DNA of 32,302 nucleotides from NCBI GenBank assembly GCA_030524055.1, contig JAUNHH010000026.1, forward strand, positions 1 to 32,302, written 5' to 3'. A model generated the notes under the pieces. It saw only the letters and a list, made by a program, of their open reading frames with translations. It was not told where the DNA came from and did no database searches. Of the stretch, positions 462 through 30,800 are shown one piece after another. The stretch is from Actinomycetaceae bacterium. Its GTDB lineage: Bacteria > Actinomycetota > Actinomycetes > Actinomycetales > Actinomycetaceae. The position numbers and the translations under genes were made by a program. How positions within the stretch are numbered: the first letter of the stretch is position 1; each line of letters starts with the position of its first letter.

Positions 462-475
462 GCCCCGCCCTCGTC
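462..475 (-). repeat. Dispersed 14-mer, exact copy
   Basis: GCCCCGCCCTCGTC read on the plus strand, intergenic, about 50 nt before the GH3 start. Confidence 0.85.
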
Positions 476-523
476 CCTTAAAACTGATTCGAGACCACTC
501 GCACTAAAGAATAGGAAACTCCC

Positions 524-2932: not shown

Positions 2933-2986
2933 AAGGTAGGGGTCGGCGTTCTCGGCAGTGGCGCTAAGCCCCTCCTTTCCACCATG

Positions 2987-3000
2987 GCCCCGTCCTCGTC
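2987..3000 (-). repeat. Dispersed 14-mer, one mismatch (left terminator arm)
   Basis: GCCCCGTCCTCGTC; forms the 5' arm of the stem-loop at 2985-3020. Confidence 0.8.
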
Positions 3001-3004
3001 AATT

Positions 3005-3018
3005 CACGAGGGCGGGGC
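3005..3018 (+). repeat. Dispersed 14-mer, one mismatch (right terminator arm)
   Basis: CACGAGGGCGGGGC; forms the 3' arm of the stem-loop, in inverted orientation to the copy at 2987. Confidence 0.8.
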
Positions 3019-3138
3019 CAATGGTTTCTTATCGGGACCTTTTTTCCTCCAGGTGGTGGATGCCTACGACGCTTTCCCTTGCCATGCTGGACACTAGTAA
3101 CTGTCGGCCACTATGGCCCAAATGACAGGGGTGTCCTC

Positions 3139-5841
3139 ATGGGAAAGAAATTGCGCAGAGTAGGTCTGGCCGTAATAGCGGTCGTATTGAGTGTGGTCCT
3201 CATTGCGGTGATCACTATTGCGGTGGTGTCACGCGCACCCTTGCCACAGGTGGATGGGCGTATTGACGTACCCGGCCTGGGCGGCGACGTCACTATTCAC
3301 CGCGATGGCCAGGGCGTGCCACACATTTATGCCACCACCGATCATGATCTTTTCTTTGCGCAAGGCTATATTCACGCCCAAGAACGCTTTTTCCAAATGG
3401 ATATGCGGCGCCATATTACGGCAGGTCGCCTCTCAGAATTAGTGGGCGCATCGGGGGTGGAACCCGATACCCTGATTCGCACTTTTGGTTGGCGTAAAGT
3501 TGCAGAAAAGGAATGGACTCATCTTTCTGAGGAAGCCCGCGCAATATACACGGCCTACACCGAAGGAGTGAATGCCTATATTGCCGATAAATCCCCCAAT
3601 GATCTGGCCAATGAATACGCCGTTTTAGGTATTCAAGCGCCACTGAAACCTATTGAACCGTGGACTCCCGTGGATTCTTTAGTCTGGTTTAAAGCAATGG
3701 CGATGAGCCTTAATGGGGCAGGATATCCAGAGGATTTGCGGATGAAAGCCCTGACGGCATTGGGCAGTCCGGAAGCGGTACAGGCCCTGTATCCGCCAGA
3801 AGATCAACAGAAAACGCGGCCCGTAATCGCTGAAGCGGAAGGGTCGAATCTTCGTCCGAGGGCGGAGTATCCTCTTGGCACGCCCCGCCCAATCCCAACC
3901 TTCCAGGCGGGGCAAAGTGGAGCATCCGCGCATAGCGGATCAGCTCAGAGCGGGGCGAATACCCGCCCACAATCAGCTGCAATGACACTATCGGCCCCGC
4001 CCTCGTCCCCAGAGACAAAGGCGAGCGACGACGTGCGACGCCTGATTGACCAAGTCGCCCCAATGGGCCACGGCCAAGGAATCGGATCGAATTCTTTTGT
4101 GGTGGCTGGAAAACACTCCACCTCAGGCAAACCCATTATTGCTAATGACCCTCACCTGGGTTTAAGCCAACCGTCTACATGGCTCCAAGTAGGTTTACAC
4201 TGCACAACGCAAAATGAGACCTGCACATTTGATGTTTCTGGTTTTTCTTTTGCTGGCCTGCCAGGCGTCATTATTGGACGCAATCAAGATATTGCCTGGG
4301 GGTTTACGGATATTGAAGATGATGTGGCCGATATTGTCGTGGAAAAGAACCTCGGTAACGGCACCTATGAACGCGATGGGAAAGCCCTGACCTACGCGAC
4401 CCGACAGGAAACTATTGCCATTGCTGGGCAGAGCGAAAAAACCATCACTATTAAGGAATCGGTCCACGGCCCGATTGTCACTGACCTTCTTGCGAAAAAA
4501 GAAGACTACGCATCAATGCCGGGACTGCCCGATGATTATGATCTCGCTGTGGAATGGACGGTTTTAAAACCAGATACCACAGGGGAGGCAGTGTTAGCGC
4601 TGAATCGTGCGCGCAATCCACAAGAGATAGCGAAAGCCGCTGAATATTTTGCTTCGCCTGCACAAAATATTCTTTTTGCGACGACAAGTGGCGATATTGG
4701 CTACCAAATGCCAGGTCGCATTCCTATTCGCCCAACTAAATCCCCCGCCGATGGTAATGCCACGCGCGCCCATAGCGCCGACAATCTTGGAGCAGATGGG
4801 CGTTGGCCCAGACCAGGATGGGATTCTTCCTATGATTGGCAGGGGTATTATGCGCCCTCAGATCTCCCTGCCGCACTGAACCCACCCAGCGGCATTATTG
4901 TTCCCGCGAATCAATCAGTAACTGACGTGGGCCTTGGCCCCTTTATAGGGATCTACTCCGGCCTGGTCCACCGACCCGCCCAGATCCGCACCGAATTGGA
5001 GCGCCTCACCGCGGCTGGGCCAATTAATCCCGATCAGGCCGCGCAGGTCATGATGCTTGACCGCTCCTCCCAAGCTGATGAACTCCAATCCGCATTGGGC
5101 GCAGTCGAACTCACTGACCCCCGCCACCGCGAACTCCAAACCCTGCTGAACTCCTGGTATAAAGCGGGCGCCCACACCTCCACCGACCAGGCAGGTGCAG
5201 CCCTAATGGGCGGCCTTTTCTCGCATCTTGCTGCGGAAGCCACAAAAGACGAATTAGGGGAGAATGCGGTATATGACGGTTATGTCTTAGGGAATCTTTT
5301 GCGTCAGCCAGACCATATTCTGTGGGATGACACATCCACCCCAGAAAAAGAAAATGCTGACGATATTATGCGGCGTGCCTACGCTAAAGCTGACGCTGAT
5401 TTGACGGCTCAAATGGGGGCAGATTTTACCCAGTGGCGTTGGGGCCGTATTCACCAAGAAACCCCAGCCCATGACATTTTTGGCCAACCAGGAATTCCGG
5501 GCCCTATTGCCGATTACTTTAATGGGGAGCGCCGCGAAGTTCCGGGCGGTGTGGATATTCCTAATGCCAATACTTATGACCCCACTGTTGATGAATCGGG
5601 GCGCGTGAATTACGAAGTGATTCATGGGGCAGCCCTGCGCTTGGTCCACGATATGGCCAATACTGACCATGCCCAATGGGTGGTCAATACCGGTGTTTCT
5701 GGCCATCCTTTATCGCCCCATTATGGGGATCAGGTGGAGTACTGGGTCTCTGGTCGCCTCTACCCGTGGGCCCTGAGTCCAACAGCGGTCCAACAGGCCG
5801 CCACCAGCACACTTGTCCTGGCTCCTCCAAAAACTCCCTAG
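3139..5841 (+). CDS. Penicillin acylase / acyl-homoserine lactone acylase family protein (Ntn hydrolase)
   Basis: This is a 900-residue member of the penicillin amidase family, which hydrolyses amide bonds such as those in penicillins, N-acyl-homoserine lactones or other N-acyl compounds. The precursor normally self-cleaves into alpha and beta chains. Motif GIGSNSFVVAG puts the catalytic N-terminal Ser at about residue 317. It is followed by NDPHL about 20 residues later, and VPANQ carries the expected oxyanion Asn. The N-terminus (MGKKLRRVGL then about 20 hydrophobic residues) is a signal peptide or membrane anchor, so the enzyme acts outside the membrane. Start ATG 3139 has AGGGGTG about 6 nt upstream; an in-frame ATG at 3079 lacks this. 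The alpha-chain end/linker at about 240-295 is low-complexity (Gly/Ala/Ser/Pro) and contains one exact dispersed 14-mer. The natural substrate is unknown. Confidence 0.92.
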   Translation: MGKKLRRVGLAVIAVVLSVVLIAVITIAVVSRAPLPQVDGRIDVPGLGGDVTIHRDGQGVPHIYATTDHDLFFAQGYIHAQERFFQMDMRRHITAGRLSELVGASGVEPDTLIRTFGWRKVAEKEWTHLSEEARAIYTAYTEGVNAYIADKSPNDLANEYAVLGIQAPLKPIEPWTPVDSLVWFKAMAMSLNGAGYPEDLRMKALTALGSPEAVQALYPPEDQQKTRPVIAEAEGSNLRPRAEYPLGTPRPIPTFQAGQSGASAHSGSAQSGANTRPQSAAMTLSAPPSSPETKASDDVRRLIDQVAPMGHGQGIGSNSFVVAGKHSTSGKPIIANDPHLGLSQPSTWLQVGLHCTTQNETCTFDVSGFSFAGLPGVIIGRNQDIAWGFTDIEDDVADIVVEKNLGNGTYERDGKALTYATRQETIAIAGQSEKTITIKESVHGPIVTDLLAKKEDYASMPGLPDDYDLAVEWTVLKPDTTGEAVLALNRARNPQEIAKAAEYFASPAQNILFATTSGDIGYQMPGRIPIRPTKSPADGNATRAHSADNLGADGRWPRPGWDSSYDWQGYYAPSDLPAALNPPSGIIVPANQSVTDVGLGPFIGIYSGLVHRPAQIRTELERLTAAGPINPDQAAQVMMLDRSSQADELQSALGAVELTDPRHRELQTLLNSWYKAGAHTSTDQAGAALMGGLFSHLAAEATKDELGENAVYDGYVLGNLLRQPDHILWDDTSTPEKENADDIMRRAYAKADADLTAQMGADFTQWRWGRIHQETPAHDIFGQPGIPGPIADYFNGERREVPGGVDIPNANTYDPTVDESGRVNYEVIHGAALRLVHDMANTDHAQWVVNTGVSGHPLSPHYGDQVEYWVSGRLYPWALSPTAVQQAATSTLVLAPPKTP
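3994..4007 (-). repeat. Dispersed 14-mer, exact copy in coding sequence
   Basis: GCCCCGCCCTCGTC within the low-complexity linker of the acylase, translated as part of SAPPSS. This is a different reading frame from the PALV copies. Confidence 0.85.
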
Positions 5842-5917: not shown

Positions 5918-6016
5918 TGTAGCGTGAACGGGTTGCTTCCTTAAGGTGCTGTAGGGAACTTCGTAAAGGGAGTTCCTTCGGATGTTGCGATGAGGAATGG
6001 GTGCTGCAACGCAGGC

Positions 6017-6030
6017 GCCCCGCCCTCGTC
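6017..6030 (-). repeat. Dispersed 14-mer, exact copy
   Basis: GCCCCGCCCTCGTC in the leader of the first RHS gene, 58 nt before its GTG start. Confidence 0.85.
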
Positions 6031-6076
6031 ACTACATTCCCTGCCGCCCCATGCGAAGCCTTCCCATCGTCGCGCT

Positions 6077-6082
6077 AAGGAG
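6077..6082 (+). promoter_or_regulatory. Ribosome-binding site fixing a GTG start of the first RHS gene
   Basis: AAGGAG is followed by 6 nt and then GTG at 6089. This fixes the start 33 codons inside a longer open frame that begins at ATG 5990, for which no ribosome-binding site is visible. Confidence 0.6.
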
Positions 6083-6088
6083 TCAGTT

Positions 6089-9000
6089 GTGGCCGAACCC
6101 TACGCAATGGCCGATGTCGTTTTTGACTTTGAGGTGGCCGCGGAATACGCAGCTATCTGCCGTAAAACGGCCGATACCATCGACCTCACCCACGGTCACC
6201 GCAACAAATGGGCCCGCGATGCCTCCGTGGACTTCTCCGGACGATTCGCCGAGATCTTCAAAGGCAACGCCAAAGCCGAAGGCGTAGACGCAGGAAACCT
6301 ATCCACCTGCCTACGTGACCTCGCCGCGAAAATCGACGCCCTCGCAGAAGGAGCCCGAGCAGAAAACGCCGCCCGCGCTCGCGCCCGCGAATGGCAGGCC
6401 CGCCGCGACCAGAAATGGGACATCCATAACAACTTTGACGACTTCTTCGGTATGGACCAGCGGCCCGTTGGCACCACAGGCGAGGCGCCAACACAAACTA
6501 TCGCTGCGCCCGCCTTGGCTGAACGGCAACCCTTCACCCACGTCGCTAACAATAACGAAACCTCCTCCGCGCGCCCAGAAAATCTGCGGAAATACGCCAC
6601 CAACTGCACTGATGCTGACAGGATTCTTCAAGAAGAAGGACGGGCCCTCAACGCCAGAAACTACGCCTTCTCTATTAGCTGCAAATGGGGCATCCTCAAC
6701 GCTGACAGCGTCCTGGACGCATACCAGCACTACCTCATCGCCAACCGTGAACAAAGCCGCTGGGCCACCACTATTGCCGACGCCTTTGAAACAGCGGGCA
6801 CCGTAGGGGAAATTCCGACCCTGTCAGACCTCGCCCTTGCAGAAGCCCTCCGCGCCGAAGGCTTGTCTTTGAACCGAAGAGAGGTCAAAGTCCAGCCCGC
6901 ACAAATGCAAGGAATGCCGCCCTCCTCCGGTTTCGCTGACGACCCTGTCAACGTCGCCACAGGCAACTTCATCGAAGAAGAACGCGACCTGACCTTTATT
7001 GGTGGTGCCGTCACCCTGTCCTGGATACGCACCTACAACTCAGTCAATAGCGCAACTGGCGCCTTCGGGCTGGGGTGGTCATCCCCTGCCGATTCCCGCC
7101 TGACCTTCAGCGACAGTGGCGACGGCCAGTGGGTACGCGACGACGGACGCCTCCTCCTCTTCCCCCGCGACGAACTCACCTGGGCACGCTCCACAGGAGA
7201 TAACTATTGGCTCAGCCAACGCAGCAGCGGCTTCGAGATCACCAACGCCAGCGGCGGAGCGTGGACCTTTAACGCTGACGGTTTCCCTATTCGCTACAGC
7301 GACGGCCCCGGAAATACCCTCACCTACATATGGGAGGAGGGCCGCCTCACCCAGATTCGCCACGAACGCGGGCGCAGTGTTGACCTGACATGGGACGTCC
7401 AGACGCAGCGTATTGTCGGGGTTGCCACCGCAGGGCGTGCACCTATCGCGTATGTCTATGACGAGGCCGGTCGCCTCACTGAAGCCACCGACACCGACCA
7501 GGGAACACGCCACTACCGGTGGAATAGCATGGGGGTAATCGACCTCGTGCGAGACGCAGATGGCGTCGCCCTCGTCGAAAATACCTACGACGACGCTGGC
7601 CGCGTCACCACCCAACGATCCCCCCAGGGCCGCGTCTCGCGATACTCCTACCTCCCCAATGGGATCACAGAAGTCAGCGACGAGGACGGGGCGCGAGCCA
7701 ATGCCTGGGTCAGTGATGAGTATGGCCGACTAGTTGCCGTCACCGACAGCGACGGCAACCGCCAAACAATGGCGTATGACCGGTGGGGCAATCAAATCCT
7801 CACCCGCGACCGCGCAGGAAAACTCTACGCCCGCGAATACGACCAGCGTGGGCGCGTAAAAGCTGCCAAAGATGCCAATGGGGTGCGCACTGACTGGGTA
7901 TGGGATGACCAAGACCGGCTAGTGAGTATCTCAGTGACAATGCCAGGGCGAACAGGAAGTGCTGACCTGAATGGCGGGCAGGGGGTAGCAGAGGACGCCG
8001 GGTTGGCTGGATCGGCGAGGCTGGCGGGTGCCGCAAGGTCAGCGGGTCAGGCGAACGCAGAAATCGCCACCACCCACTTTGAATACGCTGGCGATGACCG
8101 CGACCCCAGCGTCATTACCGACCCCATGGGCGGACAAACCCTTTTCACCTGGGAAAACGGGCACCTCATTAAGGCGGTAGACCCCACCGGAGTAGCCACC
8201 TACTACTCCTACACTGACAGCGGCGACCTGGCCGCAGTGCGCGACGCCGCAGGCAATACCACCACCATGGAATACGACCAGGCAGGCCGCCCCACATGCA
8301 TGACCAGCCCCAGCGGATACCGCACCCGCTTCACCTGGCACGGCACCCGCATGGCGTCACGAATCGACCCTGACGGCGCCACCTGGACCTTCGACTACAC
8401 GCCAGCTGGGCGCCTGAGCGCCGTAGTCGCCCCTGACGGAGGCCGCACCAGCATCGACTATGACGCCACCGGCCAAGAAAGCGTCATTACCGACCCCCTC
8501 GGGCGGCGCCTCGAAAAAACCTGGGACGACCTTGGCAATCTCGCCAGCGCCATCCTGCCTGACGGGCGCACCTGGACCTTCGTCCACGATGCCCTCTCCC
8601 GACTACGCCACATCTGCGACCCAGCTGGAGCGCGCAGTACCTACACCTACGACGAAATGGGCCGCCCCACCTCAGTGACCGGCCCTGACGGGTTCAGGGA
8701 AACCCTGACCTGGGCGCTTGGCCAAATCACCCTGACATCCCAAGACGATACGCCAGGGGAAGTACAGCGCAGCGTGAGTGTTGATGGCTTTGGGCTGTCC
8801 ACTGGGTGGGACAGTGCGGGTAGCGCTCGCGGCATTATTGTCCGTGATTTATGCGGGCGAATTATCGAAACAATTGACGCCGAGGGGAATGCGGAAAAAA
8901 TTGTCCGCGATAAAGCGGGTCGCCCTATTCGCATAAAAAATCACGAGGGCGAAGCTATTTATGATTATGACTCTTGCGGGCGGCTCAGCATGATTTCCTC

Positions 9001-11647
9001 TACTCGCGAGAGAGTAGAATTTATTTGGGATGCCGATTCACGTCTGATTGAACGCCGTGAAACCCGTGGAAGTTATCGCTATGAATGGGATGAATGTGGA
9101 CGACTGGTGCGTGAACGTATTCCCGGGCGGGGCCTGGTCTCCTACTCCTACGATAAATGCGGGCGTATTGTCGCTATTTCTGGCGGGCAATGGGGAAAGA
9201 GAAAATTCTCCTGGGATGTGAGTGGGCAACTCACTTCAGTAACAAATGCTCTGGGTGGGGTGACCCGATTTGAATATGACGATTGTGGCCGGAGGATTGC
9301 GGAAATCAATCCTTTAGGTGGGCGTACTGCATTTACCTATACCGATCATGATCTGGTTGATTCCATTACTGATCCTTTAGGGCGCGTGACCCGCTCACAA
9401 TATGACCTGAACCGCCGACAAATCTGGCAAGAAAACGCTGATGGGTCCATTTTGAAGTGGGTCCGTGATGGTAGCGTGGATACGTTGTATGGTGGTGCAC
9501 CTAGTGGCGAGGAAGAAGTTATTTCACGCCACAGGTATAGTCCTGATGGGCGACAGGTCATCCGGAGCAGAGGTGATTCCGGTGGGGCTGATGGGGACAG
9601 TGATGCTGGCGGCCACAATGATTCTGGTGCGGCACACATAGAATATGACGCTTTTGGGCGGACTATCCGTTATGGCGCGCAGGGTAAAGACGCTATTTCT
9701 TGGCAGTGGGATCAATATGGCAACCTGTCCCGAGTTCAACGCGGCGGCGAGTATGTTGAATACCGCTGCGGCAAGGATGGTGCGCTGAACGAAATTGAGG
9801 GGAGCGTATTTGGGCTTATTTCCTACGAATATGATGACTCAAGTGCCACTATTTCAGGTCGCGACCTCAAGCAAAAATGGGAATACGATCATTTAGGTCG
9901 GATTACCTCCTATGTGATTACCCGCCCAGAGGGTGAAGAAACTATTTCCCTCCAATGGGATGACGAAAGCCGTTTGATATCAGTATCTGATAGCAGTGGT
10001 GTGACCAGTTATTCCTATGATGAAGCCGGACAAATCGCCAGCGTTGATTCACCCTCAGGGAAGCACGAATACCTATGGGATCATGCTGGGTTGTTACGGG
10101 AAGTTCTTTCCATTAACGAGGACGGGGCGCGGAGTGAAAAATTCACTTATGACGCGGCTGGGCAACTCATTGGGCGCGCGAGTGCTGAGGATTCATGGGT
10201 GTATACCTATGACGCCTTAGGGCGTCGGACTAGTGAAGTTGGGCCTGATGGTCTGCGGACCTATGAGTGGAATCTGGCTGGGCATCTTGAAGCCCTCACT
10301 GTAGCCAGCGGGAGGGTGGCTATCGACCGCGACTATGCGGGTCGGCCAACACGTATTGGGGATATCCCAGTGGAATATGATCCGCTGCAGGGTACCCCAA
10401 GCCATATTGGTGACACCTCCCTGTTCTGCCTGCCAGGTGTAGCAGTCTACGGGGCGGATCTTCAGCCTTTAGGACATCGCCGTGCGCGTGCAACGCATGT
10501 CAATAATCCTTGGGAAATGCAGGCACTAGCAGGGGATCGAGGAGCGGATTCTCCACTGCAGGTCAGTGCCACGGGCTCGGTCAGCATTCATGGTTATGAA
10601 CTGCTGGGTGCGCGCACCTATGACCCAGCAACATTCTCTTTCCTTTCTATTGATCCGCTCCATCAATTTCCTACAGCCCCCTGGGCTAGTAACCCCTACT
10701 CCTATGCGGCCAATAATCCCCTGGCCTTTAGTGACCCTTCAGGTTTTAAACCGCTCAGTGATCAGGATATCGAGGACTATAACCACCAGTCCTCCTGGTG
10801 GAAGCAACACGGCGATTGGGTAATTGGTGGAGCTATGCTCGTCGCTGGTGGAGTCATGGTCGCGACAGGATTCGGTGGCCCCGTTGGCATGATGCTCATC
10901 GGTGCCGGGGCGGATACCCTCATCCAGAAAGCGATGACAGGCAAGGTGAATTACTGGCAGGTTGCAGTTTCCAGTCTCTCTGGTGCTGTGGCTGGGGTAA
11001 ATGGCGCTTGGCTTGCTACCAAATTCAGCATGAAGCTTCTGCCAGGAACAATCACTATTGGCGCCATGTCTGGAGCAGCTTCTGGATCTTCATCTGGAGC
11101 TTTCAGCTATATGAGTATGCCTGGACCCCATACAGTGGGTGGGTTCGTGGAGCACTCAGTGCGAGGTGCTGCGTCAGGTGCCGTCTTTGGAGGGGCTGGT
11201 GGAGTTGCAGGGCATAAACTCACCAATGGCCTCTCAAAACTTTTTAATAGGCCGCTACACGGGAGTTCAACGGTAATTTCGGGACATGGTGGTATGGACC
11301 CAGGTGATTACTCAATGTTTACTGTGCCACGTGGCGTGAATATTCGTTTCTTTTGCCCTCATGGAGGGCGGGTTATGGATGACACCGGTAATCTCATCGA
11401 ACAGGGCGTTGCTCGTTGGCCATATAGGTCAACAACTCCGCTTAATGAGGTTGAACATGTGGCGCGGCCTGGCGACAGGGTTCCTGATTATCTTCTAGAT
11501 GCTCCCGATGCTGACCCAAAGAACATCCTTATCGTTAAGGGGAACCCCGTTACAGTGAAGGAAGAAACCCGCATGTCATCAATCATTACCGAACCTGGAA
11601 CGTATGACTGGGCAGCATGTCGAGAAGTAGGTTATAAGACCTACTAG
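6089..11647 (+). CDS. Giant RHS/YD-repeat polymorphic toxin, probable type VII secretion substrate
   Basis: The protein has about 1852 residues. Order: WXG-like helical region (about 1-110, strongly charged second helix); a second helical module (about 162-255) with CKW at 198-200; a DUF6531-like RHS entry region from about 284; dozens of YD repeats (YDxxGRL type) from about 450 to 1415; the RHS core closing motif GARTYDPATFSFLSIDP near 1507, then NPYSYAANNP and DPSG near 1550; and a 300-residue variable tip. The repeats are expected to form a cocoon enclosing the tip. The tip starts with a Gly/Ala-rich hydrophobic stretch (about 1570-1720) and ends in a compact region (ISGHGGMDPGDY, VPRGVNIRFFCPHGG). 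That region recalls the Stv-type domain; I cannot assign an activity. Two small paralogs follow immediately. Codon usage changes near 8820. Confidence 0.88.
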   Translation: MAEPYAMADVVFDFEVAAEYAAICRKTADTIDLTHGHRNKWARDASVDFSGRFAEIFKGNAKAEGVDAGNLSTCLRDLAAKIDALAEGARAENAARARAREWQARRDQKWDIHNNFDDFFGMDQRPVGTTGEAPTQTIAAPALAERQPFTHVANNNETSSARPENLRKYATNCTDADRILQEEGRALNARNYAFSISCKWGILNADSVLDAYQHYLIANREQSRWATTIADAFETAGTVGEIPTLSDLALAEALRAEGLSLNRREVKVQPAQMQGMPPSSGFADDPVNVATGNFIEEERDLTFIGGAVTLSWIRTYNSVNSATGAFGLGWSSPADSRLTFSDSGDGQWVRDDGRLLLFPRDELTWARSTGDNYWLSQRSSGFEITNASGGAWTFNADGFPIRYSDGPGNTLTYIWEEGRLTQIRHERGRSVDLTWDVQTQRIVGVATAGRAPIAYVYDEAGRLTEATDTDQGTRHYRWNSMGVIDLVRDADGVALVENTYDDAGRVTTQRSPQGRVSRYSYLPNGITEVSDEDGARANAWVSDEYGRLVAVTDSDGNRQTMAYDRWGNQILTRDRAGKLYAREYDQRGRVKAAKDANGVRTDWVWDDQDRLVSISVTMPGRTGSADLNGGQGVAEDAGLAGSARLAGAARSAGQANAEIATTHFEYAGDDRDPSVITDPMGGQTLFTWENGHLIKAVDPTGVATYYSYTDSGDLAAVRDAAGNTTTMEYDQAGRPTCMTSPSGYRTRFTWHGTRMASRIDPDGATWTFDYTPAGRLSAVVAPDGGRTSIDYDATGQESVITDPLGRRLEKTWDDLGNLASAILPDGRTWTFVHDALSRLRHICDPAGARSTYTYDEMGRPTSVTGPDGFRETLTWALGQITLTSQDDTPGEVQRSVSVDGFGLSTGWDSAGSARGIIVRDLCGRIIETIDAEGNAEKIVRDKAGRPIRIKNHEGEAIYDYDSCGRLSMISSTRERVEFIWDADSRLIERRETRGSYRYEWDECGRLVRERIPGRGLVSYSYDKCGRIVAISGGQWGKRKFSWDVSGQLTSVTNALGGVTRFEYDDCGRRIAEINPLGGRTAFTYTDHDLVDSITDPLGRVTRSQYDLNRRQIWQENADGSILKWVRDGSVDTLYGGAPSGEEEVISRHRYSPDGRQVIRSRGDSGGADGDSDAGGHNDSGAAHIEYDAFGRTIRYGAQGKDAISWQWDQYGNLSRVQRGGEYVEYRCGKDGALNEIEGSVFGLISYEYDDSSATISGRDLKQKWEYDHLGRITSYVITRPEGEETISLQWDDESRLISVSDSSGVTSYSYDEAGQIASVDSPSGKHEYLWDHAGLLREVLSINEDGARSEKFTYDAAGQLIGRASAEDSWVYTYDALGRRTSEVGPDGLRTYEWNLAGHLEALTVASGRVAIDRDYAGRPTRIGDIPVEYDPLQGTPSHIGDTSLFCLPGVAVYGADLQPLGHRRARATHVNNPWEMQALAGDRGADSPLQVSATGSVSIHGYELLGARTYDPATFSFLSIDPLHQFPTAPWASNPYSYAANNPLAFSDPSGFKPLSDQDIEDYNHQSSWWKQHGDWVIGGAMLVAGGVMVATGFGGPVGMMLIGAGADTLIQKAMTGKVNYWQVAVSSLSGAVAGVNGAWLATKFSMKLLPGTITIGAMSGAASGSSSGAFSYMSMPGPHTVGGFVEHSVRGAASGAVFGGAGGVAGHKLTNGLSKLFNRPLHGSSTVISGHGGMDPGDYSMFTVPRGVNIRFFCPHGGRVMDDTGNLIEQGVARWPYRSTTPLNEVEHVARPGDRVPDYLLDAPDADPKNILIVKGNPVTVKEETRMSSIITEPGTYDWAACREVGYKTY
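7679..7692 (+). repeat. Dispersed 14-mer, one mismatch
   Basis: GACGAGGACGGGGC in the first RHS gene, encoding DEDGA. Confidence 0.65.
10115..10128 (+). repeat. Dispersed 14-mer, two mismatches
   Basis: AACGAGGACGGGGC in the first RHS gene, encoding NEDGA. Confidence 0.55.
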
Positions 11648-11701
11648 AGGGTTAAGTGCCCATTTGCTTGTCTTGCTGCAATTAGAGAATGGAGGATGAC
11701 C

Positions 11702-20803: not shown

Positions 20804-20817
20804 GACGAGGGCGGGGC
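20804..20817 (+). repeat. Dispersed 14-mer, exact copy
   Basis: GACGAGGGCGGGGC in the 69-nt gap between the substrate-binding lipoprotein gene and the EssC-type gene. Confidence 0.85.
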
Positions 20818-22165: not shown

Positions 22166-24948
22166 CGTTTCGGCGCTCCAATGGTGAAGGTGTACACCGT
22201 GGTGACCCGGTCAGATTTTGGATCCATCCGGAAGGGGCGCGCGTCAGAAAGGACCTGCAAACTCGCGCGGACTTGGGCCTGCTCGAAGATGAGATGCGAG
22301 GCGTCAGTCGAGCGCAGATTGACGTATCCCGTATTGCGTTGTTCAGCCAGGGCCAACTGGAAGGTCGCATTATTACTCAATGCCGCAGAGGTATTAACGG
22401 ACCCGAGGAAGCCCTTTCCATTACCGTCAGGGCTACCAAGGTCAATCATTAATTTCGCCATATCTGCATTGAGTAGGGATCGTGCCCCTTCAATATCCTG
22501 GGCAGCTGAGGACGTTGACGCCACAATAGAATCCGCTGCCCCGCGAGTAGGTTCGCTGACAGGGTTTTTGCCCAGGCTGGAGATTTGCTGCTGCTGTTGG
22601 GCAAGGATCTGTTCGGTAGCTCCCGCTGCCCGCATCCCCTGTTCGCGCACTTTAGTCGAGGCTGTTCCCATGAATTGGTCTACTTGGGAACTAGCTGCCG
22701 CGGTAGTGGCGGTGATATTGCGGATCTGGGCATCAAAGAGGGGCCCAACTCCATTTTCGAGGGCGGAGGCAGAATCAACGATGCCTTGGACTTTCTTATT
22801 CGCTTCTACGTGTTTTGCCTCAAGATCAGACATCTGCTGGTCGAGGGAGGTGGCCTCCTTTTTAAGTTCCTCGACTTTACTGCGAATCAGGCCGAGGTCG
22901 ATCTTTTTCTCATCGCCATCCTCGTCACCATTCTGATTGCGATTGTTGGCACCATTCTTCAGGCCGTCAAGATCCTTGCGGAGCTCGTCGAGTTTACTGT
23001 TAACGCTGCTGACTTTTTTCGCCAGGCTGTTGTCAGTTTCTGGGTTTGTTTGCGCAACAATGATTTCCAGAGTGCCAGCTTGCGTATCGAGGACTTCAGG
23101 CAGGCGACTGGTGTATCCCTCAGGGAGTGGCAACGCCCCTGCTTCGCCCTCAGGCGTGTCTTCAGGTGCATCTGCAGGGGTGCAGCGTTCGGCACTGAAA
23201 TAGGCGCGAGCTTTTTCTAGTTCGGCAAGCATTTCACCTGACTCAAGGCCGTCAGCTGCCCTACAGATCTGCTCAGAAGCAGCCTGGGCTTGCGATCGAG
23301 CTGTCTCATTTGCCTTGAGTGAGCTTTGGGCAGAGTCGTGAATTTGGGTGACACGACTGTTAAAGGCATCAATATCGCCTTTCGCATCATCAATGCGTTG
23401 GAAGGCATTGTCAAAAGAGAGTGCGCCGGATTGTCCGGATTCCGGTCCATCTTCCCCGGATTGTGCCCCTTTCAATTCCGCATCAATGTCATTGGCTAGT
23501 GAGGAAATATGCGTGCTGGTGGATCGGGCTTGTTCGATAAATTCGGGCTGTAAATCTGCCAGCGCCTTTTCGCTATCTGTCCGAAGTTTTTCTCCCAGAA
23601 CAAGAACGCCTGCTTTTAATCCGGCTAATTGGCAGGTGGTTGAGGGGGTGTCTTTACAATTTTCTGCATTCGGTTCTGCCGGGCCAATGGCATTAAGAAT
23701 GTGGCCAGATAGAGCCTGGCGGCATTCATCATTGGCATTGGCATAGGCCTGAAGATAGCTATTCAAATTCAGCATGCTGCCATAAATTGATGCAGAGCCA
23801 CCTTGGGACTGAGAAATATCAGCCGCGCATCCACTGCCATTAACAGTGACCGCGCCAGGTGCAGGCGGGGCTGTGGCGTCACCAAATGCGGCAAGAAGTG
23901 TATTGACATTATCGTGCAGCATAGAGGTGGTTTGAGATTCTCTATTCCGCAAGGATGTCCCCAATGCCTCCGACAATCTCTGGAGGCTATCTCGAGTTCC
24001 TTCCATTGTCTTTGACAGGGAATCGGAGGAAGATGCCAAGTCGCGCACGGTGGTAGCGCCGAGGGTTTTGGAGGAGTTTGTCAGGTCATCACGGACCTTC
24101 ACGAGGATTTCTTCAGCGCTGGCCAGATTCGTATTGACTTCATTAATGACGTCAATAGTGGCTGCTGTCATTGCCGCTTCAGACGCAGGCCCGGAATTCA
24201 GTGCCTGGTCGAGAACCGCTTTTGATGAAGGGTCGGTGACATATCCACGCTGAACAGCGACATTAAAAGTGGGGACCTCGAAATTCTGGGCCTGCATCAC
24301 CAGGCGAAGTTGGGCGCTTGTGCCAAGGCGGGGAGGGGCCAGCACAGTTGCCCATTGAACGACGGCCTGTCCTTCGCCATTGCGGGAAAGAACGCCGTTG
24401 GTCACCGACTTTGGATTATCTCCAGCGGTAATGACAGTGGCAGGGTCAGCTTTAAGAGTTGTTGACCCAACAATGGTCAAAGGCACACCAACGAGGGCGT
24501 TGGCCCTGTAAGCGACACCGCCAACGTCGTAGGTGATCTCTTTGGGAGCCACTGTGAGGTTCTCCACAGTAACGTCAATAGTGACCTTACCGTTGTAGCC
24601 AGCGAGGTCCTCAAGATTGCTGCCTGTTCCTTTGTCAGTCCGGTATGACGTGCGAATACGCACCGGAAGATCGGCTGCTGCCTGGGTGGGTGAGTACTTC
24701 ACTTTCTCAGCTGAGGTGGCATTTGCCCCAACGGCGAGGACGGTGCCATTGATCCCCTCGATCTGCCCATTAGTACCCATCTGGACTTCGACAGATTGGA
24801 GCTTATTGACCTCTGCCGCATTGGCTGCATGGCCACCAGCAAGTGGCATAAGTGCCAGTGCGCATAGTGCGGCAATCAGCCGGTGTTTCTGCCCGGACCT
24901 GCGGCTTCGCTTCTGGGTGCTGGTTGATGGATGATGGTCAGGTCGCAC
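22162..24948 (-). CDS. Exported long coiled-coil protein, putative T7SS accessory factor
   Basis: A 928-residue exported protein. GTG 24948 was chosen because AGGGGAGGA lies 6 nt upstream; an in-frame GTG at 25023 lacks a ribosome-binding site. A basic N-terminus (KRSRRSGQKHR), a hydrophobic core (LIAALCALALMPLAGG) and AANAAE form a signal peptide with cleavage near residue 44. A beta-rich region follows (about 45-240). Long helical/coiled-coil stretches run from about 245 to 840, broken by acidic Gly/Ser/Pro linkers and containing six Cys that could pair outside the cell. A final folded region ends in TVYTFTIGAPKR. There is no C-terminal membrane segment. It is the first gene of the minus-strand block. 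The long extracellular helical character is reminiscent of the EsaA ectodomain in Firmicutes T7SS, but no homology is claimed. Confidence 0.78.
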   Translation of the reverse strand: MRPDHHPSTSTQKRSRRSGQKHRLIAALCALALMPLAGGHAANAAEVNKLQSVEVQMGTNGQIEGINGTVLAVGANATSAEKVKYSPTQAAADLPVRIRTSYRTDKGTGSNLEDLAGYNGKVTIDVTVENLTVAPKEITYDVGGVAYRANALVGVPLTIVGSTTLKADPATVITAGDNPKSVTNGVLSRNGEGQAVVQWATVLAPPRLGTSAQLRLVMQAQNFEVPTFNVAVQRGYVTDPSSKAVLDQALNSGPASEAAMTAATIDVINEVNTNLASAEEILVKVRDDLTNSSKTLGATTVRDLASSSDSLSKTMEGTRDSLQRLSEALGTSLRNRESQTTSMLHDNVNTLLAAFGDATAPPAPGAVTVNGSGCAADISQSQGGSASIYGSMLNLNSYLQAYANANDECRQALSGHILNAIGPAEPNAENCKDTPSTTCQLAGLKAGVLVLGEKLRTDSEKALADLQPEFIEQARSTSTHISSLANDIDAELKGAQSGEDGPESGQSGALSFDNAFQRIDDAKGDIDAFNSRVTQIHDSAQSSLKANETARSQAQAASEQICRAADGLESGEMLAELEKARAYFSAERCTPADAPEDTPEGEAGALPLPEGYTSRLPEVLDTQAGTLEIIVAQTNPETDNSLAKKVSSVNSKLDELRKDLDGLKNGANNRNQNGDEDGDEKKIDLGLIRSKVEELKKEATSLDQQMSDLEAKHVEANKKVQGIVDSASALENGVGPLFDAQIRNITATTAAASSQVDQFMGTASTKVREQGMRAAGATEQILAQQQQQISSLGKNPVSEPTRGAADSIVASTSSAAQDIEGARSLLNADMAKLMIDLGSPDGNGKGFLGSVNTSAALSNNATFQLALAEQRNTGYVNLRSTDASHLIFEQAQVRASLQVLSDARPFRMDPKSDRVTTVYTFTIGAPKR

Positions 24949-24954
24949 AATACT

Positions 24955-24963
24955 TCCTCCCCT
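24955..24963 (-). promoter_or_regulatory. Strong ribosome-binding site deciding the start of the coiled-coil protein
   Basis: On the minus strand AGGGGAGGA sits 6 nt before GTG 24948, inside an open frame that extends 25 codons further upstream. It favours the shorter protein, whose signal peptide then has a normal length. Confidence 0.65.
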
Positions 24964-25123
24964 TGTGGTTGCTGATTTCTCTGGCGAAAGATGGGAAAAC
25001 TGATTCGCCGGAAATCCGCTCACTCGGCATCATAGGTGCATGAGGGATTCAAGGGTACTTGGAACCAAAGAATCACGTTAGCGCCACTATATAGTCAGTA
25101 ACTCTAGGGACAGGAGCTCCACT

Positions 25124-27166
25124 GTGAAGCGAAATGCCGACTCACAAGCCAATATGCTGGGCGCTCACTACATTCTTGAAGATGAAATTGGGCGCGGCGC
25201 AATGGGCCAGGTGTTTCGCGCCACTGATAAGCGCAATCACGCCACGGTAGCGGCAAAAATCCTGCGTTCAGAACATATGGAGGACCCCGCCCTCGTCACT
25301 CGATTCATCCAAGAGCGGAATATCCTCATGGGCCTACGTGGTCCTGGAATTGTTGGCGTTCTTGACCTGGTCGTTGATGGTGGGCGACTGGGTGTGGTCA
25401 TGGAATATGTCCCTGGTGGTTCCCTGCGCAGTGCCCTGTCTCTTTCCGGACCGCTTCCACCTTCCCTTGCCTTGAATGTTTGCGGACGAATTCTTGACGC
25501 TTTGGCATTGGCGCACAGCGTTGGAGTCGTCCATCGTGACGTCAAACCTGACAATGTTCTTCTTGCTTCCTCCTGGACTAAGGGTGGAGTTGGCGATATT
25601 CGCCTTGTGGACTTTGGTATTGCCAGCATTGTCACGGACGGGGCGCGGCGGACCTCAACTGGCATTATTGGTACGCCGGAATATATGCCGCCAGAACTTA
25701 TTAGTGAAGGTGTTAGTGGTGCGCCTGGCGATGTCTACAGCACAGGCGTTGTTCTCTATGAACTTCTTGCTGGCCGCACACCCTTTGGTTCAGCTGGAAA
25801 TGACTTTACGATCGCTCACCGCCACGTCACGATGGCCGCCCCGGAAATCGATGTTCCTGCGCCATTGTGGAAGGCGCTGACCTCGATGCTGAATAAAGTT
25901 CCCTCGTCGCGTCCCACAGCTGCCGAGGCGGCCGAACTCTTGCGTTCACTCGCAAAAGAACACGCTGACCTGGCTGCTTTAGAGCGCCCAGAGGATCCGT
26001 CCACCTACTCCCCGACATATCATCCAGCCACTATCGCCTTGGGCGTGCCGGACGCATCTGCGCAAGTAGATACACCATTGCCAGACCCTCATGCCGCACT
26101 GGGAGCAATGGTTCCTGACAGCGGCCCACAGCGCATTAAACACAAACCAATTCCAAATCTGGGAACCCCAGACGGGCATACCATTGTCCAGCCTTTAGGC
26201 CTGCCAGGTGGGGAAAATGAAGAAAATGAGGAGATGGAAAAAGCCCCAACCTGGTGGCGCCGATTATTGCGCCCACGTATTTTTATTCCCCTTGCCATCA
26301 GCGTTGTTTTAGTTATTGGCCTGAGTGTCTATTTCGCACTTTTTGGATTCCCGAATGTCCAAGGCGAGGAACCTCAACCGCAATCCGAAAGTCCAATAAC
26401 TGCAAATGGGGCAGCAAAACCAACGGCCGCTGGATTAACAATGTCATGGAGCGCTGTTAAATCTCCCAACAGGGACACTATTGAAGTAACAATGACATTC
26501 AATGCGGATAATGCCCCATTGGAAGGACCATTCTTTGCTGTCCTTGGGCCTTTAGGTGACGAGGGCGGCTGTCCCTCTTTAACGTGGAATGTCCCGGCTG
26601 CTGCCTCTCGCAATTCTGCAGCCGTCAGTGGTGTGAATGCGAAATGTGGGTGGGCATTAAATCCAGGAACAATCGGGCCGAAATCTCAACTGACCCTACA
26701 AGCCACGATTACCCCGGAGAAGGAAGTGACGCAAGAAACTTTAACTTCCTGGGTAGAAGATAGTGTGGCGGCGACCGAAACGGCTATGGCTGATAAGGCT
26801 GTTCAGGGCACCGCCTATCCTGTACAGCGCCTGACGGGAGTGCAAATCAAAGTTCCGAGCAGTGTTGTAGCAAGCTCACCTGTGCAAATATCTGTGGTTC
26901 CTGTGTGGCCCTCCGGTGCGGATGAAGCGCATCCAATTTTTGTCAGTCCTGCTGGCGGTGAGCCCTCAACACTGTTGACATCTATTGCCGGCGGTGCTGA
27001 AGGAGTTGTTTTCTCTGATGGGTGTGCTGGGTCATTAGTGGTGTCTACTGATGGTCGGTCAGTGTCCACAGTTGGACCAACCCCATCATGCGTAGTTAAA
27101 GCTCAGGTCGGGAATTTCCTGAATCTGAACTCGAATCAATTCGCCATTGTGAATTCTGGAAGTTAG
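25124..27166 (+). CDS. Receptor-type serine/threonine protein kinase (PknB-like)
   Basis: A 680-residue transmembrane Hanks-type kinase. The N-terminal kinase domain (about 15-275) is complete: GRGAMG loop (23-28), Lys45 (VAAKIL), Glu64, HRDVKPDN (137-144), DFG (163-165), TSTGIIGTPEYMPPE activation segment (to 191). It is therefore predicted active, unlike the pseudokinase EssB of Firmicutes T7SS. A Pro-rich linker precedes one membrane helix (about 386-408). The extracytoplasmic part (about 410-680) is beta-rich with four Cys, has no PASTA repeats and matches no sensor domain I know. GTG 25124 follows CAGGAG by 7 nt. It is divergent from the secretion block and upstream of the WXG100 and RHS genes. 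Likely targets include the motor with its FHA domain (inference). A near-exact dispersed 14-mer encodes PALVT at about 55-59. Confidence 0.93.
   Translation: MKRNADSQANMLGAHYILEDEIGRGAMGQVFRATDKRNHATVAAKILRSEHMEDPALVTRFIQERNILMGLRGPGIVGVLDLVVDGGRLGVVMEYVPGGSLRSALSLSGPLPPSLALNVCGRILDALALAHSVGVVHRDVKPDNVLLASSWTKGGVGDIRLVDFGIASIVTDGARRTSTGIIGTPEYMPPELISEGVSGAPGDVYSTGVVLYELLAGRTPFGSAGNDFTIAHRHVTMAAPEIDVPAPLWKALTSMLNKVPSSRPTAAEAAELLRSLAKEHADLAALERPEDPSTYSPTYHPATIALGVPDASAQVDTPLPDPHAALGAMVPDSGPQRIKHKPIPNLGTPDGHTIVQPLGLPGGENEENEEMEKAPTWWRRLLRPRIFIPLAISVVLVIGLSVYFALFGFPNVQGEEPQPQSESPITANGAAKPTAAGLTMSWSAVKSPNRDTIEVTMTFNADNAPLEGPFFAVLGPLGDEGGCPSLTWNVPAAASRNSAAVSGVNAKCGWALNPGTIGPKSQLTLQATITPEKEVTQETLTSWVEDSVAATETAMADKAVQGTAYPVQRLTGVQIKVPSSVVASSPVQISVVPVWPSGADEAHPIFVSPAGGEPSTLLTSIAGGAEGVVFSDGCAGSLVVSTDGRSVSTVGPTPSCVVKAQVGNFLNLNSNQFAIVNSGS
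25284..25297 (-). repeat. Dispersed 14-mer, one mismatch
   Basis: ACCCCGCCCTCGTC in the kinase gene, encoding PALV just after the catalytic Lys region. Confidence 0.7.
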
Positions 27167-27316: not shown

Positions 27317-27601
27317 ATGGCAGGTCGTGTGCTTGCGTCCCCGGAGGCTCAGTCGTCGATTGCGACGATGCAGGGCATCATTGATGGTGGTCTGGGTGAT
27401 CAGATTGCGAAGCTGGATGCTGAGGGCAATAAGCTGTCAGATCCTAATGTGTGGGATGGGCCTTTGGCTGAGCGTTTTCGTTCGAGTACTTGGCCTGATA
27501 CCAGTGGTGCGTTGAAGAAGGTTCAGCAGGAGCTTCTTGAACTTCGTGCCGAGTTGGAAAAGATCCAGCGCGACATTATGACCGCCGGCGGCGGCTCCTG
27601 A
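27317..27601 (+). CDS. WXG100-family (ESAT-6-like) type VII secretion protein
   Basis: A 94-residue helical hairpin protein. Helix 1 covers about 8-40 and the WXG turn is VWDGPLAERFR at about 46-56. Helix 2 (ALKKVQQELLELRAELEKIQ) runs to the GGGS C-terminus. Length and pattern are typical of actinobacterial WXG100 proteins, which are secreted as dimers and are needed for secretion of partner substrates. There is no classical YxxxD/E tail motif. ATG 27317 lies 6 nt after GGAGG (27306-27310); the overlapping GTG at 27314 is too close. It sits between the kinase and the second RHS gene. It has only one WXG100 gene here, consistent with an EssC-type system using a homodimer (inference). Confidence 0.92.
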   Translation: MAGRVLASPEAQSSIATMQGIIDGGLGDQIAKLDAEGNKLSDPNVWDGPLAERFRSSTWPDTSGALKKVQQELLELRAELEKIQRDIMTAGGGS

Positions 27602-27619
27602 CCTGGCAGCAATGCCAAA

Positions 27620-27698: not shown

Positions 27699-27723
27699 AT
27701 CCCACATTACTGAATTAAATTCA

Positions 27724-27738: not shown

Positions 27739-27887
27739 CCCCGCTCCTGTCATTTGCGGGATTCCTTTATATGCAGGCTGACCGACTATATGCTCAGCTG
27801 CTCTTTAACCCATATTTCTCGGGCGTATCGTCTTAAATTACGCCGAAAACCGTCGCCGTAGTGCGTGTCACCTAGGGGAGAAACGCT

Positions 27888-30800
27888 ATGCCACAAGGTT
27901 CTGATCAGATCGGTCCACTCAAAGGGATTGATGAAGACGTCCGTTTTGATTGGGCTGCGGCAGAAGAGTGTGTTGCTGCTTTCCGTTCCTCAGCAGATCT
28001 GATTGATGGTCAAAAAGGAACGCGTTCCTCCGCAGTGTCAACAGCAACGGGTGAATTCCGCGGCTATTATGCGGATCTATTCAAGCAGAACGCAGGAATT
28101 CAAGAGCAGGACGCTACCAATGTGGCCACTGCGTTACGCGATGCTGCCACAAAAATTGAACGCCTCGCCGAAGAAGCGCGCAAAGAGCAACAGCGTCGCG
28201 AAACAGGGCGACGGTGGAAAGAAGAACATGACAACCGGAATTGGTTTGATAAGACCTGGGACGCAATTTTCGGCGAAGACCCTCCAGGTATCGGCCCCGC
28301 CGCCGAACCAATCGTTGAAACAAGCCCCGCCCCGGCCACCGGTGCACGCCAAGACCTGACAGGGCAAGGCCCCACTGGCACATCTTCAGCTAGGCCTGGC
28401 GATTTGCGCTCATTTGCCAGCACGTCTACTGACTTAAATAGCGCTCTGTCTGACTCTTCTTCAGCTGCGAAAAGTCGATATGACGCCTTTGTCGCCGGTT
28501 GCGGCTGGGGTAGCGTGGATGCCAGTGGAGTCCTGACTGGCTTTACGACCTACATTGCTGCCAACGAAAATGACGTCCACTGGGCCAATGTTGTCGCTGA
28601 CCTATTTGAAGCAGCAGGTTCCAATGGCGACGTCACCACACTATCCAATAGCACCATTGATGAAGGCCTACGCAATGCTGGAGTGAATGCGGTCCGTTCG
28701 CCTACGGCCGTTCAACCCGCGAATGTGGCCGGTGGGCAAACCACTAGCGGCTACGCTGACGATCCCGTTAATGCTGGGTCGGGCTCATTTGTTGAGCCCG
28801 AAGTGGATTTTGCTGGGGCAGGTGGCCTGGCAGCGCTCATCTTTACCCGCGTCTATAACTCTCGTGGTGGCGCGCCCAGTGGCGCTTTTGGCCCAGGCTG
28901 GTCCAGTGCAGCAGATTCGCGTGTGTTTTTCACTGACGAGGCCGGGGTGTGGATCCGTGAAGACGGCGCCCACATAAACTTCCCCCGAGACGGGCAGGGT
29001 TGGGGCCGCGCACCTGGCCATACCTTATGGCTTGAAGCAGACCCAGGCGGCTCCGGATACATCATTTCTGATCACCAGGGTGGCCGTTGGTATTTTGATG
29101 CTGCTGGTCTCCTTATTTCCACCTCCCGCGGGGCCGGCACGCGCGTGGACTTTGAGCGCAGTAACGGCAGACTTGTCCGTCTGCTTCACGAGAGGGGCCC
29201 CGCCCTCGTTTGTGAATGGGAAGGCGAGCGGATCGTCGCCCTTACCACATGGGATGGCAGGCGCACGGAATATTTCTACGACGAGGCCGGACGCCTCATT
29301 GGTGTTGCGGGTGGAGACCATGGCGGACGTTCCTACCAGTGGAACTCTGCGGGGGTCGTGTGCGCGGTCAGTGACGCTGACGGCGTGCGTTTTGTTGAGA
29401 ATACCTACGACGAGGACGGACGAGTCCTTACTCAACGCTCAGCGCGCGGAGCACTGACCGAATACACCTACCTACCAGGCCACATTACCCAGGTGGCCAG
29501 CGAAGACGGCACCAATGTGTGGCGCCACGATGATCGCGGCCGCCTGATTGCTGTTACCGATGGTAACGGCGGTAGACAAAACGCTGGATGGGACCGGTGG
29601 GACGGCCAAGTCATTTTCACTGGCCGCGATGGCGTGACCACCGCCCGCGAATTCGACGCGCGAGGCCGACTGGTCACCGAAGGACGCGATAAAGTCATTA
29701 CCCGAATCGAATGGGATGAACAGGACCGCGCCACCCGAGTCACCGTCACCAGCGACGACACAACCTACGAAACCCTCTACGAATACGAGGGCGAAGGCCG
29801 CTTCCCCAGCCGTATTACCGACCCTGAAGGCGGAGTAACCCAGGCGCAGTGGGATAAAAATCTGCTACTGAAAATTATTGACCCCACCGGGCGCGTCACC
29901 CGTTTTGAATACGATGCTCATGGCGACGTTATTGGTGTCATTAATGGTGTCGGTGGTCACGCGCGCCTAGAGCGTGATGAGGCGGGGCGTATTACGCGCA
30001 GTATTTCCCCGGAAGGGCGCGTTACCCGTTTTGAGTACAGCTCTGCTGGCCACTGTGTGCGGATCACTGACCCCGCAGGCGGTGTGTGGACGCGCGAATA
30101 TAGCGCAGCTGGCCGACTGATCGCCAAAACTGACCCTCTTGGTGGCCGGACAGAAATTCTGGTGGACCAGGCAGGCGACGAAGTGGGCACCATTGACGAA
30201 CTTGGTCGCCCCTTCCGTATGGAACTTGACTCCGCTGGAATGGTGTCCAACGTTGAACTTCCTGACGGAACCACATGGGAGTTCACTCACGACGCCTTGT
30301 CACGCCTGACCCAAATGCGCGATGGCTCCGGCGGCACCTGGGACCTGGAATTCGACAAGGCCGGACACCCACTAGTTGGCACTGACCCCACTGGTGTTCC
30401 CACTATCGCCACCGTTGGCACAGCAGGATTTACTGACTCTATTACTGCACTGGGCGCCACCTATTCCAGTGAACGTGACCGTCTTGGGCGGTTGATTTCG
30501 GAGACTGGTCCGGATGGTGCGAGTAGTCATTATGAGTATGACAGGTGTGGGCGGCTTGTTTGTGCTGTTGATCCTGATGGTGGGGTGACGCGGTATGAGC
30601 GTGACGCTGCTGGTCGGCCGGTGTGGGTGACGTTGCCGTCTGGGTTGCGGTATGGATACGAGTATGATGCGGCTGGCCGGTGGACTGGGGCTGTTTCTAC
30701 TGGTGGGAATCGGTGGAGTTTTGCGTATGACGGTGATGGGAACCTGGTGGAGGAGGCTTGGCCTACCGGGGAGAAAGTCGTTACTGAGTATGATGGGGCG

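Follow-up and report, generated by a model that had tools for sequence, protein, structure and literature searches.

Why does one 14-mer, GACGAGGRCGGGGC, recur in unrelated genes and in the gaps between them within a single contig of an Actinomycetaceae bacterium? The stretch of DNA in question, called the window here, is the whole 32,302-base sequence of contig 33 of the source genome (3,034,260 bases in 47 contigs, 98.3% complete; G000 among the 213 genomes of the family, each of which we label with a G number). The window holds 17 matches to the 14-mer with at most two mismatches, counting both strands, while 100 dinucleotide shuffles averaged 0.71 matches and never exceeded 3. The first-pass annotation of this DNA had put the chance expectation at far fewer than one exact copy, and had proposed a DNA uptake sequence or another genome-wide signal. 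We find that the numbers, placement and dialects of the motif, together with the com/tad genes of the source genome, support that proposal, and from them we infer uptake: the motif probably works like a DNA uptake sequence, a self-recognition signal of the Actinomycetaceae, a reading to which we give a probability of roughly 0.72.

Numbers, shape and placement in the source genome

The motif is abundant throughout the source genome. The exact 14-mer occurs 369 times (185 forward, 184 reverse), the 12-mer ACGAGGGCGGGG 1,001 times (500/501) and the core ACGAGGVCGG 1,783 times (880/903), or ∼590 per Mb, while the corresponding reversed patterns, a control that makes no correction for codon use, occur 0 (0 and 0), 1 (0/1) and 38 (16/22) times. 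The 14-mer and core counts refute confinement to an island, and it is virtually certain that the genome-wide signal is real. Similar results are obtained from a non-random sample of 423,416 bases (20 stretches plus the window, from contigs C1, C2, C3, C13 and C17; 14% of the genome), in which ACGAGGGCGGGG is found 122 times and ACGAGGGCGG 188 times, compared to 0.24 and 3.5 expected from a fourth-order Markov model. The best 25 9-, 10- and 12-mers of this sample are all parts or variants of the motif. In the sample, ACGAGGGCGGGG has 122 exact copies, 124 with one mismatch and 114 with two, but 20 permuted 12-mers average 0.15, 4.3 and 72.

These counts exceed what codon use and composition would produce in the source genome. 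In 229 genes called by a home-made codon-score gene caller (73.5% coding), we found 115 core copies, compared to a mean of 8.7 and a maximum of 12 in 20 synonymous-codon shuffles, and the density of the core per kb is 3.2-fold greater in non-coding than in coding DNA. With a second set of 288 genes (81% coding), the gapped word CGAGGNCG is found 346 times in genes, compared to 115.8 after shuffling, and 168 times in non-coding DNA, compared to 17.6 in letter shuffles; since gene calling is incomplete, part of the ‘non-coding’ copies sit in missed genes, chiefly in GC-rich samples. If the motif were an artefact of composition or codon usage, one could point to the DEG- and DED-type codons that make GACGAGGNCG common in GC-rich genomes, to which the reversed control is blind, and to the GC-rich relatives in which the excess in genes is only 1.3–1.9 times the shuffle, and where codon usage is a possible contributor. 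For the source genome, however, the synonymous shuffle, the Markov model and the letter shuffles refute this explanation, and one relative (G060) enriches a different word, CGACGNCG, rather than CGAGGNCG; we consider an artefact hardly credible.

The 14-mer picked out by the first-pass annotation is the best-conserved part of the motif, but the full motif extends over ∼17 bp, A-T-(T/G)-N-ACGAGG(G>A,C)CGG(G/A)GC. Alignment of the 188 copies of ACGAGGGCGG shows A-T-(T/G)-N upstream and (G/A)-G-C downstream, with information falling to ∼0 beyond 17 bp. Ten core positions of this alignment are set by the search word, and the hardness of the core rests instead on a table of single substitutions built around the 98 exact copies of the 13-mer ACGAGGGCGGGGC. 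Changes within CGAGG or the following CG yield at most 1 copy each, while variation is found at position 7 (13 A, 10 C), at position 11 (15 A) and at the last C (15 T). The motif has a hard core and soft ends; it is non-palindromic and has one free base. We also noted slight T-richness in the sample, ∼9 bases upstream of the first base of the core and 18–20 bases downstream of it, which recalls the tracts that flank the Haemophilus uptake signal sequence (USS).

This shape bears on two further candidates. HIP1 of cyanobacteria is a palindromic word that is very frequent genome-wide and of unclear function; the motif is likewise very frequent, but it differs from that palindromic octamer in being non-palindromic, in its free base and in its dialects, and we reject a HIP1-like element. 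A dispersed mobile repeat of the repetitive extragenic palindrome (REP), bacterial interspersed mosaic element (BIME) or miniature inverted-repeat transposable element (MITE) type would account for the many copies and for the palindromic pairs that some of them form. However, there is no conserved element longer than the motif, as the flanks carry ∼0 information beyond 17 bp, copies lie within reading frames of known families, and the spelling shifts by species around a constant core, which leaves a mobile repeat very improbable.

If the motif directed some other chromosome-wide transaction, as a Chi-like recombination stop, a segregation signal or a nucleoid protein site, its abundance would be unsurprising, because such signals too can vary from lineage to lineage and are found at hundreds of sites in a genome. 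Chi and the FtsK-orienting polar sequences (KOPS) are short, frequent and genome-wide, as the motif is, but they are strand-polar. The motif shows no local strand bias in the 423 kb: the two strands hold 48 and 42 copies in contig C3 (160 kb) and 39 and 39 in C13 (140 kb), and assignment by GC skew (bins with skew >0.01) gave 99 vs 83 on the G-rich strand (P value 0.27). The first-pass annotation had argued from mixed orientation against Chi and FtsK-guiding motifs, and this local balance upholds the argument and rules out a polar motif of the Chi or KOPS type in the source genome. The genome-wide balance of 185/184 is weak evidence on this point, because even a polar motif comes out balanced over a whole circular chromosome. 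Spacing is slightly even (57 gaps of 80–800 bp vs 78.5 at random, and 69 gaps of 1.6–3.2 kb vs 57.3), which speaks somewhat for a signal of this kind. Against it, one of the two Tad pilus loci of the genome (the second; L262, 770–13678) directly adjoins a UvrD-helicase/PDDEXK-nuclease pair that is AdnAB-like, and to our knowledge AdnAB does not use Chi; neither hairpin pairs behind genes nor species dialects would be expected from such a signal. On balance we think it unlikely, although it deserves to be kept in view.

Across 22 bins of 12–20 kb, 21 hold 9–15 core copies each, while the bin at C13:60001–80000 (L044) holds 2. This bin encodes a TrwC relaxase, a serine recombinase, an SMC-like ATPase and an MFS transporter, and its GC content is 63%; given the relaxase, the recombinase and the GC content, it is likely a mobile element.

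Where copies of the motif lie close together, they are usually inverted. Among 27 neighbouring pairs <80 bp apart in the sample, 24 are inverted, of which 4 lie within called genes and 20 outside. The pairs outside genes fall in convergent gaps (10), in co-directional gaps (9) and at a sequence end (1), with none in divergent gaps, and 16 of the 19 measurable inverted pairs are within 30 bp of the 3′ end of a gene. The placement of inverted pairs after genes, alongside coding and intergenic copies, is as the first-pass annotation had anticipated from a single hairpin in the window; four further inverted-pair hairpins have z scores of −4.4 to −8.3. The position of these strong hairpins right behind stop codons might suggest that the motif is mostly the stem of an intrinsic terminator, but of the 246 core copies in the sample, close inverted pairs account for only 48, the other 198 are single (118 of these in genes), and such pairs are few in relatives. 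The single and coding copies largely refute a terminator-only explanation, which we rate as very unlikely. The same placement bears on the idea that the copies are bound by an abundant regulator, or are recognized by a DNA methyltransferase or a defence system. A non-palindromic core with one free base does resemble some modification sites, but the copies lie inside genes in several frames, the inverted pairs stand after genes and in no divergent gap, and enrichment of this strength is not known to be usual at modification sites. We regard this idea as improbable.

Relatives, dialects and a sister word

Relatives carry dialects of the motif around a core, CGAGGNCG. Few members of the genus are rich in the 12-mer ACGAGGGCGGGG itself (190 copies in G146, 157 in G170, 135 in G157, 108 in G156 and 93 in G151), and its counts are lower in the rest (41 in G173, 39 in G145, 29 in G153, then fewer). 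The relaxed word TTGNCGAGGNCG is at least 4-fold above its reversed control in 32 of 35 members of the genus, the exceptions being G149 (2.3-fold), G150 (2.7-fold) and G171 (1.7-fold). Among the 213 genomes, it also reaches very high counts in single genomes of other genera of the family (for example 453 vs 6 for the reversed control in G126, 262 vs 0 in G211, 234 vs 5 in G185 and 218 vs 10 in G084). In 317 genomes of the order's other families, the ratio is mostly <4, judged by eye, and at most ∼13. In some genera of those families, in genomes such as G332, G252, G326, G420, G518 and G307, the ratio is ∼9–13, to which codon use could contribute. The signal may extend beyond the family.

Analysis of k-mers in 18 sampled genomes, together with motif fits, points to distinct spellings in different species: ACGAGGCCGGGG in G148 and G155, TGCCGAGGCCG in G152, TTGCCGAGGCCG in G158, TTGACGAGGACG in G167, T(G/T)CCGAGGGCG in G126 and T(G/T)GNCGAGGNCG in G185. 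For G146 (a sample of 27.9 kb only), G151, G148, G155, G175, G060 and G006, the motif fit did not converge and the assignment is based on k-mer and gapped-word ranks; these ranks were also used for G170 and G157, in which the fit drifted to a T-centred form. The word common to these spellings is CGAGGNCG, which ranks first of 16,384 gapped words (xxxxxNxx) in 10 of the 18 genomes (G000, G146, G170, G151, G157, G167, G126, G211, G185 and G084) and second or third in G148, G152, G158 and G155. It ranks 21st in G175, 187th in G159, 503rd in G006 and 8,205th in G060, and in the last two, which belong to other genera, CGACGNCG ranks first.

Comparison with synonymous shuffles separates the two words in genes. 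CGAGGNCG exceeds the shuffle 9.5-fold in G211, 6.6-fold in G084, 3.7-fold in G126, 3.2-fold in G167, 3.0-fold in both G000 and G158, 2.7-fold in G152 and 2.4-fold in G185. In 16 genomes CGACGNCG, a one-base sister word that acts as an internal control, stays at 0.4–1.3 times expectation. G060 and G006 show the opposite pattern, with CGACGNCG at 4.9 and 1.6 times expectation and CGAGGNCG at 0.5 and 0.8 times. Similarly, across the family a C form, TTGNCGACGNCG, is high where the G form is low (170 vs 5 in G064, 160 vs 5 in G069 and 251 vs 31 in G196) and low where the G form is high (6 vs 460 in G000 and 12 vs 262 in G211). Genera g27 and g15 carry both forms, and neither is found in G171, G077, G181, G212, G072, G073, G130 or G131; in GC-rich genera, part of the count of either form may be compositional. 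A ComEC tree intended to set dialects against descent had support on 0 of 7 inner branches.

A scan for the inverted pair gave, among the best 80 of 105 stretches, 19 named Schaalia, Actinomyces or Pauljensenia, 8 in one record (Xylanimonas cellulosilytica 352_XCEL) and 53 scattered, many of them in GC-rich genomes, which we take for chance or ordinary hairpins. An inverted pair is also present on two viral contigs. In carrying such pairs (loci L065, L066, L068, L077, L084, L101, L112 and L117), the Xylanimonas record resembles Schaalia-like genomes, and the name of the record may be wrong.

Two other repeats came to light in these samples. In stretches L227–L231 and L243–L245 of G126, the 12-mer GGATGACCCCCG occurs 73 times in 160 kb, probably as a clustered regularly interspaced short palindromic repeat (CRISPR) array. 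In stretches L057–L061 and L195–L198 of G157, GAACAGAGCGGA, CGAAGTCCGCTC and similar words occur 13–15 times in 105 kb and form a separate repeat family.

Copies of the 14-mer in the window

The four exact copies reported by the first-pass annotation (at 462, 3994, 6017 and 20804) were all found, and two further copies, at 2987 and 7679, are exact with A at the Y position. As had been described, the copies lie on both strands, in genes and in gaps, and in various reading frames (PALV, SAPPSS and DEDGA). The first, GACGAGGGCGGGGC (462–475, minus strand), is intergenic, 48 bp before a GH3 glycosidase gene (524–2932) that itself holds a two-mismatch copy (945–958, minus) read as LPALV on the gene strand. 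Beyond this gene, the exact A variant (2987–3000, minus) and a one-mismatch copy (3005–3018, plus) form the left and right arms of an inverted pair. The pair, at 2987–3018, looks like the stem of a terminator: it begins ∼55 bp beyond the stop codon of the GH3 gene, and its predicted hairpin has −37.2 kcal/mol (z −7.26). Downstream, an exact copy (3994–4007, minus) lies in a penicillin-amidase-family gene (3079–5841) and is read as APPSS on the gene strand.

Four copies fall in a long open reading frame (ORF) with RHS repeats (5990–11647; assigned by a domain scan of the first 837 aa): an exact copy at its 5′ end (6017–6030, minus), which may precede the true start, a two-mismatch copy (7563–7576, minus), the exact A variant in the DEDGA frame (7679–7692, plus) and a one-mismatch copy (10115–10128, plus). 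ORF 11696–12202 (DUF7919) holds a two-mismatch copy (12005–12018, plus). In an FtsK/SpoIIIE-FHA gene (16475–20758) there are two minus-strand copies, with two mismatches (18230–18243) and one (20289–20302), and the exact copy that follows (20804–20817, plus) is intergenic, 10 bp beyond the 3′ end of ORF 20828–22165 on the minus strand. The remaining copies are one with two mismatches (24733–24746, plus) in ORF 22162–25023, which had no Pfam match, one with a single mismatch (25284–25297, minus) in a protein-kinase gene (25124–27166), and two that lie, by eye, in the same RHS-like reading frame (28935–28948, plus, two mismatches; 29197–29210, minus, one mismatch).

With respect to gene content, the window encodes the FtsK/SpoIIIE-FHA ATPase and the protein kinase just mentioned and, by eye, a small WXG100-like frame (27317–27603) and a second RHS-like frame (27890–32302). 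Together these four may represent a type VII secretion locus, with cargo of the RHS type.

Competence genes and a putative uptake signal

The source genome encodes machinery through which an uptake signal could act. A ComEA-like protein (SLBB plus helix-hairpin-helix), which scores below the NCBIfam ComEA cut-offs, immediately precedes ComEC, and DprA is encoded as well. Of the two Tad loci, one has a TadA ATPase above the NCBIfam cut-off, and the ATPase of the second falls short of that cut-off (267 bits vs 373 in the same model); these Tad ATPases are the two strong T2SSE matches in the genome. The ComEC protein (L260, 8466–10064) has 532 aa, a Competence domain and a weak DUF4131 match, with no C-terminal metallo-beta-lactamase domain reported. 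This gene content recalls Micrococcus luteus, a member of the same phylum with two tad loci, comEA and comEC, in which natural transformation requires the two tad loci (PMC4322843, PMC6370729; these and the other papers cited are represented here by parts of their text). In the text of that article the phrase ‘uptake sequence’ has 0 matches, and the passages cited here describe no uptake sequence (PMC4322843).

Most features of known uptake sequences that can be read from DNA are found in the source genome, namely number, density, lack of polarity, coding copies beyond codon use, hairpin pairs and a hard core, and dialects are found across relatives. Like the DNA uptake sequence (DUS) of the Neisseriaceae, the motif is short and non-palindromic, has hundreds to thousands of copies, and combines an invariant inner core (CTG in the DUS, CGAGGNCG here) with dialects elsewhere (PMC3630211). 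Pairs of the DUS lie in terminators (PMC1852404), as is predicted for pairs of the motif. The density of ∼590 per Mb is comparable to that of the USS of the Pasteurellaceae, which ranges over ∼200–800 per Mb (∼200–500 and 500–800 per Mb for two USS types), and which also has more than one dialect per family (PMC12616744) and inverted pairs in terminators (PMC1852404). Uptake motifs are reported from the terminators of both of these families by TerminatorNet (2026), which draws on thousands of genomes (PMC13020248). However, the motif shares no sequence with the DUS or the USS, comes from Gram-positive Actinomycetota with a different envelope, and is known from sequence alone. Moreover, the strong pilus ATPase matches here are of the Tad/Flp type rather than type IVa, and in place of the ComP-type receptor of the Neisseriaceae the candidates here would be Tad minor pilins and ComEA, no search for ComP having been made.

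Several observations weigh against an uptake signal. First, the presence of com/tad genes in the source genome bore out the expectation that they occur with the motif, but their presence does not track the motif across relatives. ComEC is found in 209 of 213 genomes of the family, motif-less ones included, and HHH_3 (ComEA-type) and TadA-type matches are found in all of 24 genomes chosen for comparison (12 with many copies of the G or C form, 12 with few of either); because these genes are near-universal, their presence fails to separate motif-rich from motif-poor genomes. A second TadA-like gene is found in 8 of the 12 motif-rich and 3 of the 12 motif-poor genomes, which would fit decay after loss of competence, although the numbers are too small to carry weight; G152, G158, G185 and G069 have the motif without it. 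Second, the excess of CGAGGNCG in genes is only 1.3–1.9 times the shuffle in G157, G175, G155, G151, G159, G148, G146 and G170, and G159 and G175 are weak in non-coding DNA also (2 vs 3.0 and 5 vs 4.1 expected). In some of the GC-rich samples the control offered by CGACGNCG is less clean outside genes, as this word too is raised there over letter shuffles in G151 (61 vs 16.2), G148 (21 vs 7.2), G155 (21 vs 6.9) and G170 (30 vs 10.9), although non-coding CGAGGNCG is raised more in the same genomes (87 vs 17.1, 38 vs 6.2, 44 vs 7.6 and 51 vs 9.2).

Third, non-coding inverted pairs <50 bp apart are frequent only in G000 (24 inverted, 4 direct). The inverted/direct counts are 8/5 in G151, 4/0 in G211, 4/1 in G146, 3/0 in G126, 3/2 in G155, 2/2 in G170, 2/5 in G148 and 0/3 in G157, with at most one pair in the others, and the samples of G060 and G006 had no such inverted pairs of their own word, CGACGNCG; since pairs are few elsewhere, the use of hairpins at gene ends is well shown in the source genome only. 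Fourth, the depletion of the motif in mobile DNA comes from one island of different GC, picked as the lowest of 22 bins. Finally, no uptake or transformation data for the species or the family were among the papers listed in our searches of open-licence PubMed Central, nor was a description of any uptake sequence in Actinomycetota.

If the motif is an uptake signal, double-stranded DNA with CGAGGNCG and species-specific flanks would be bound at the cell surface by a sequence-specific protein. The likeliest candidate is a component of a Tad/Flp competence pilus, either a minor pilin or a tip protein, with ComEA as the alternative. The bound DNA would be drawn in, passing ComEA and ComEC as a single strand, and DprA and RecA would recombine the incoming strand into the chromosome. 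Preferential recapture of motif-bearing DNA from kin would cause the motif to accumulate genome-wide by molecular drive, and a change of receptor would shift the dialect between species. Inverted pairs at the ends of genes would, in the source genome, have been co-opted as hairpin terminators. Binding, uptake, drive, hairpin termination and the identity of the receptor are all steps that we infer.

We lean, with some reserve, toward an independently evolved, family-wide uptake language of CGA(G/C)GNCG words, comprising two or more core classes and numerous dialects in the flanks, which would be read by a Tad/Flp pilus or ComEA rather than a type IVa pilus, and in which dialects would partly bar mating between species that live together. 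In the cited parts of the literature, uptake sequences are described from two Gram-negative families. If the uptake reading is true, the Actinomycetaceae would provide a third, independent case, in Gram-positive actinobacteria, indicating that sequence-tagged uptake evolves repeatedly and can employ another kind of pilus, and the drivers of uptake sequences would be testable through comparison of separate origins. The motif would also aid studies of uptake in these poorly tractable commensals, and its dialects would predict which of them are partners in gene exchange.

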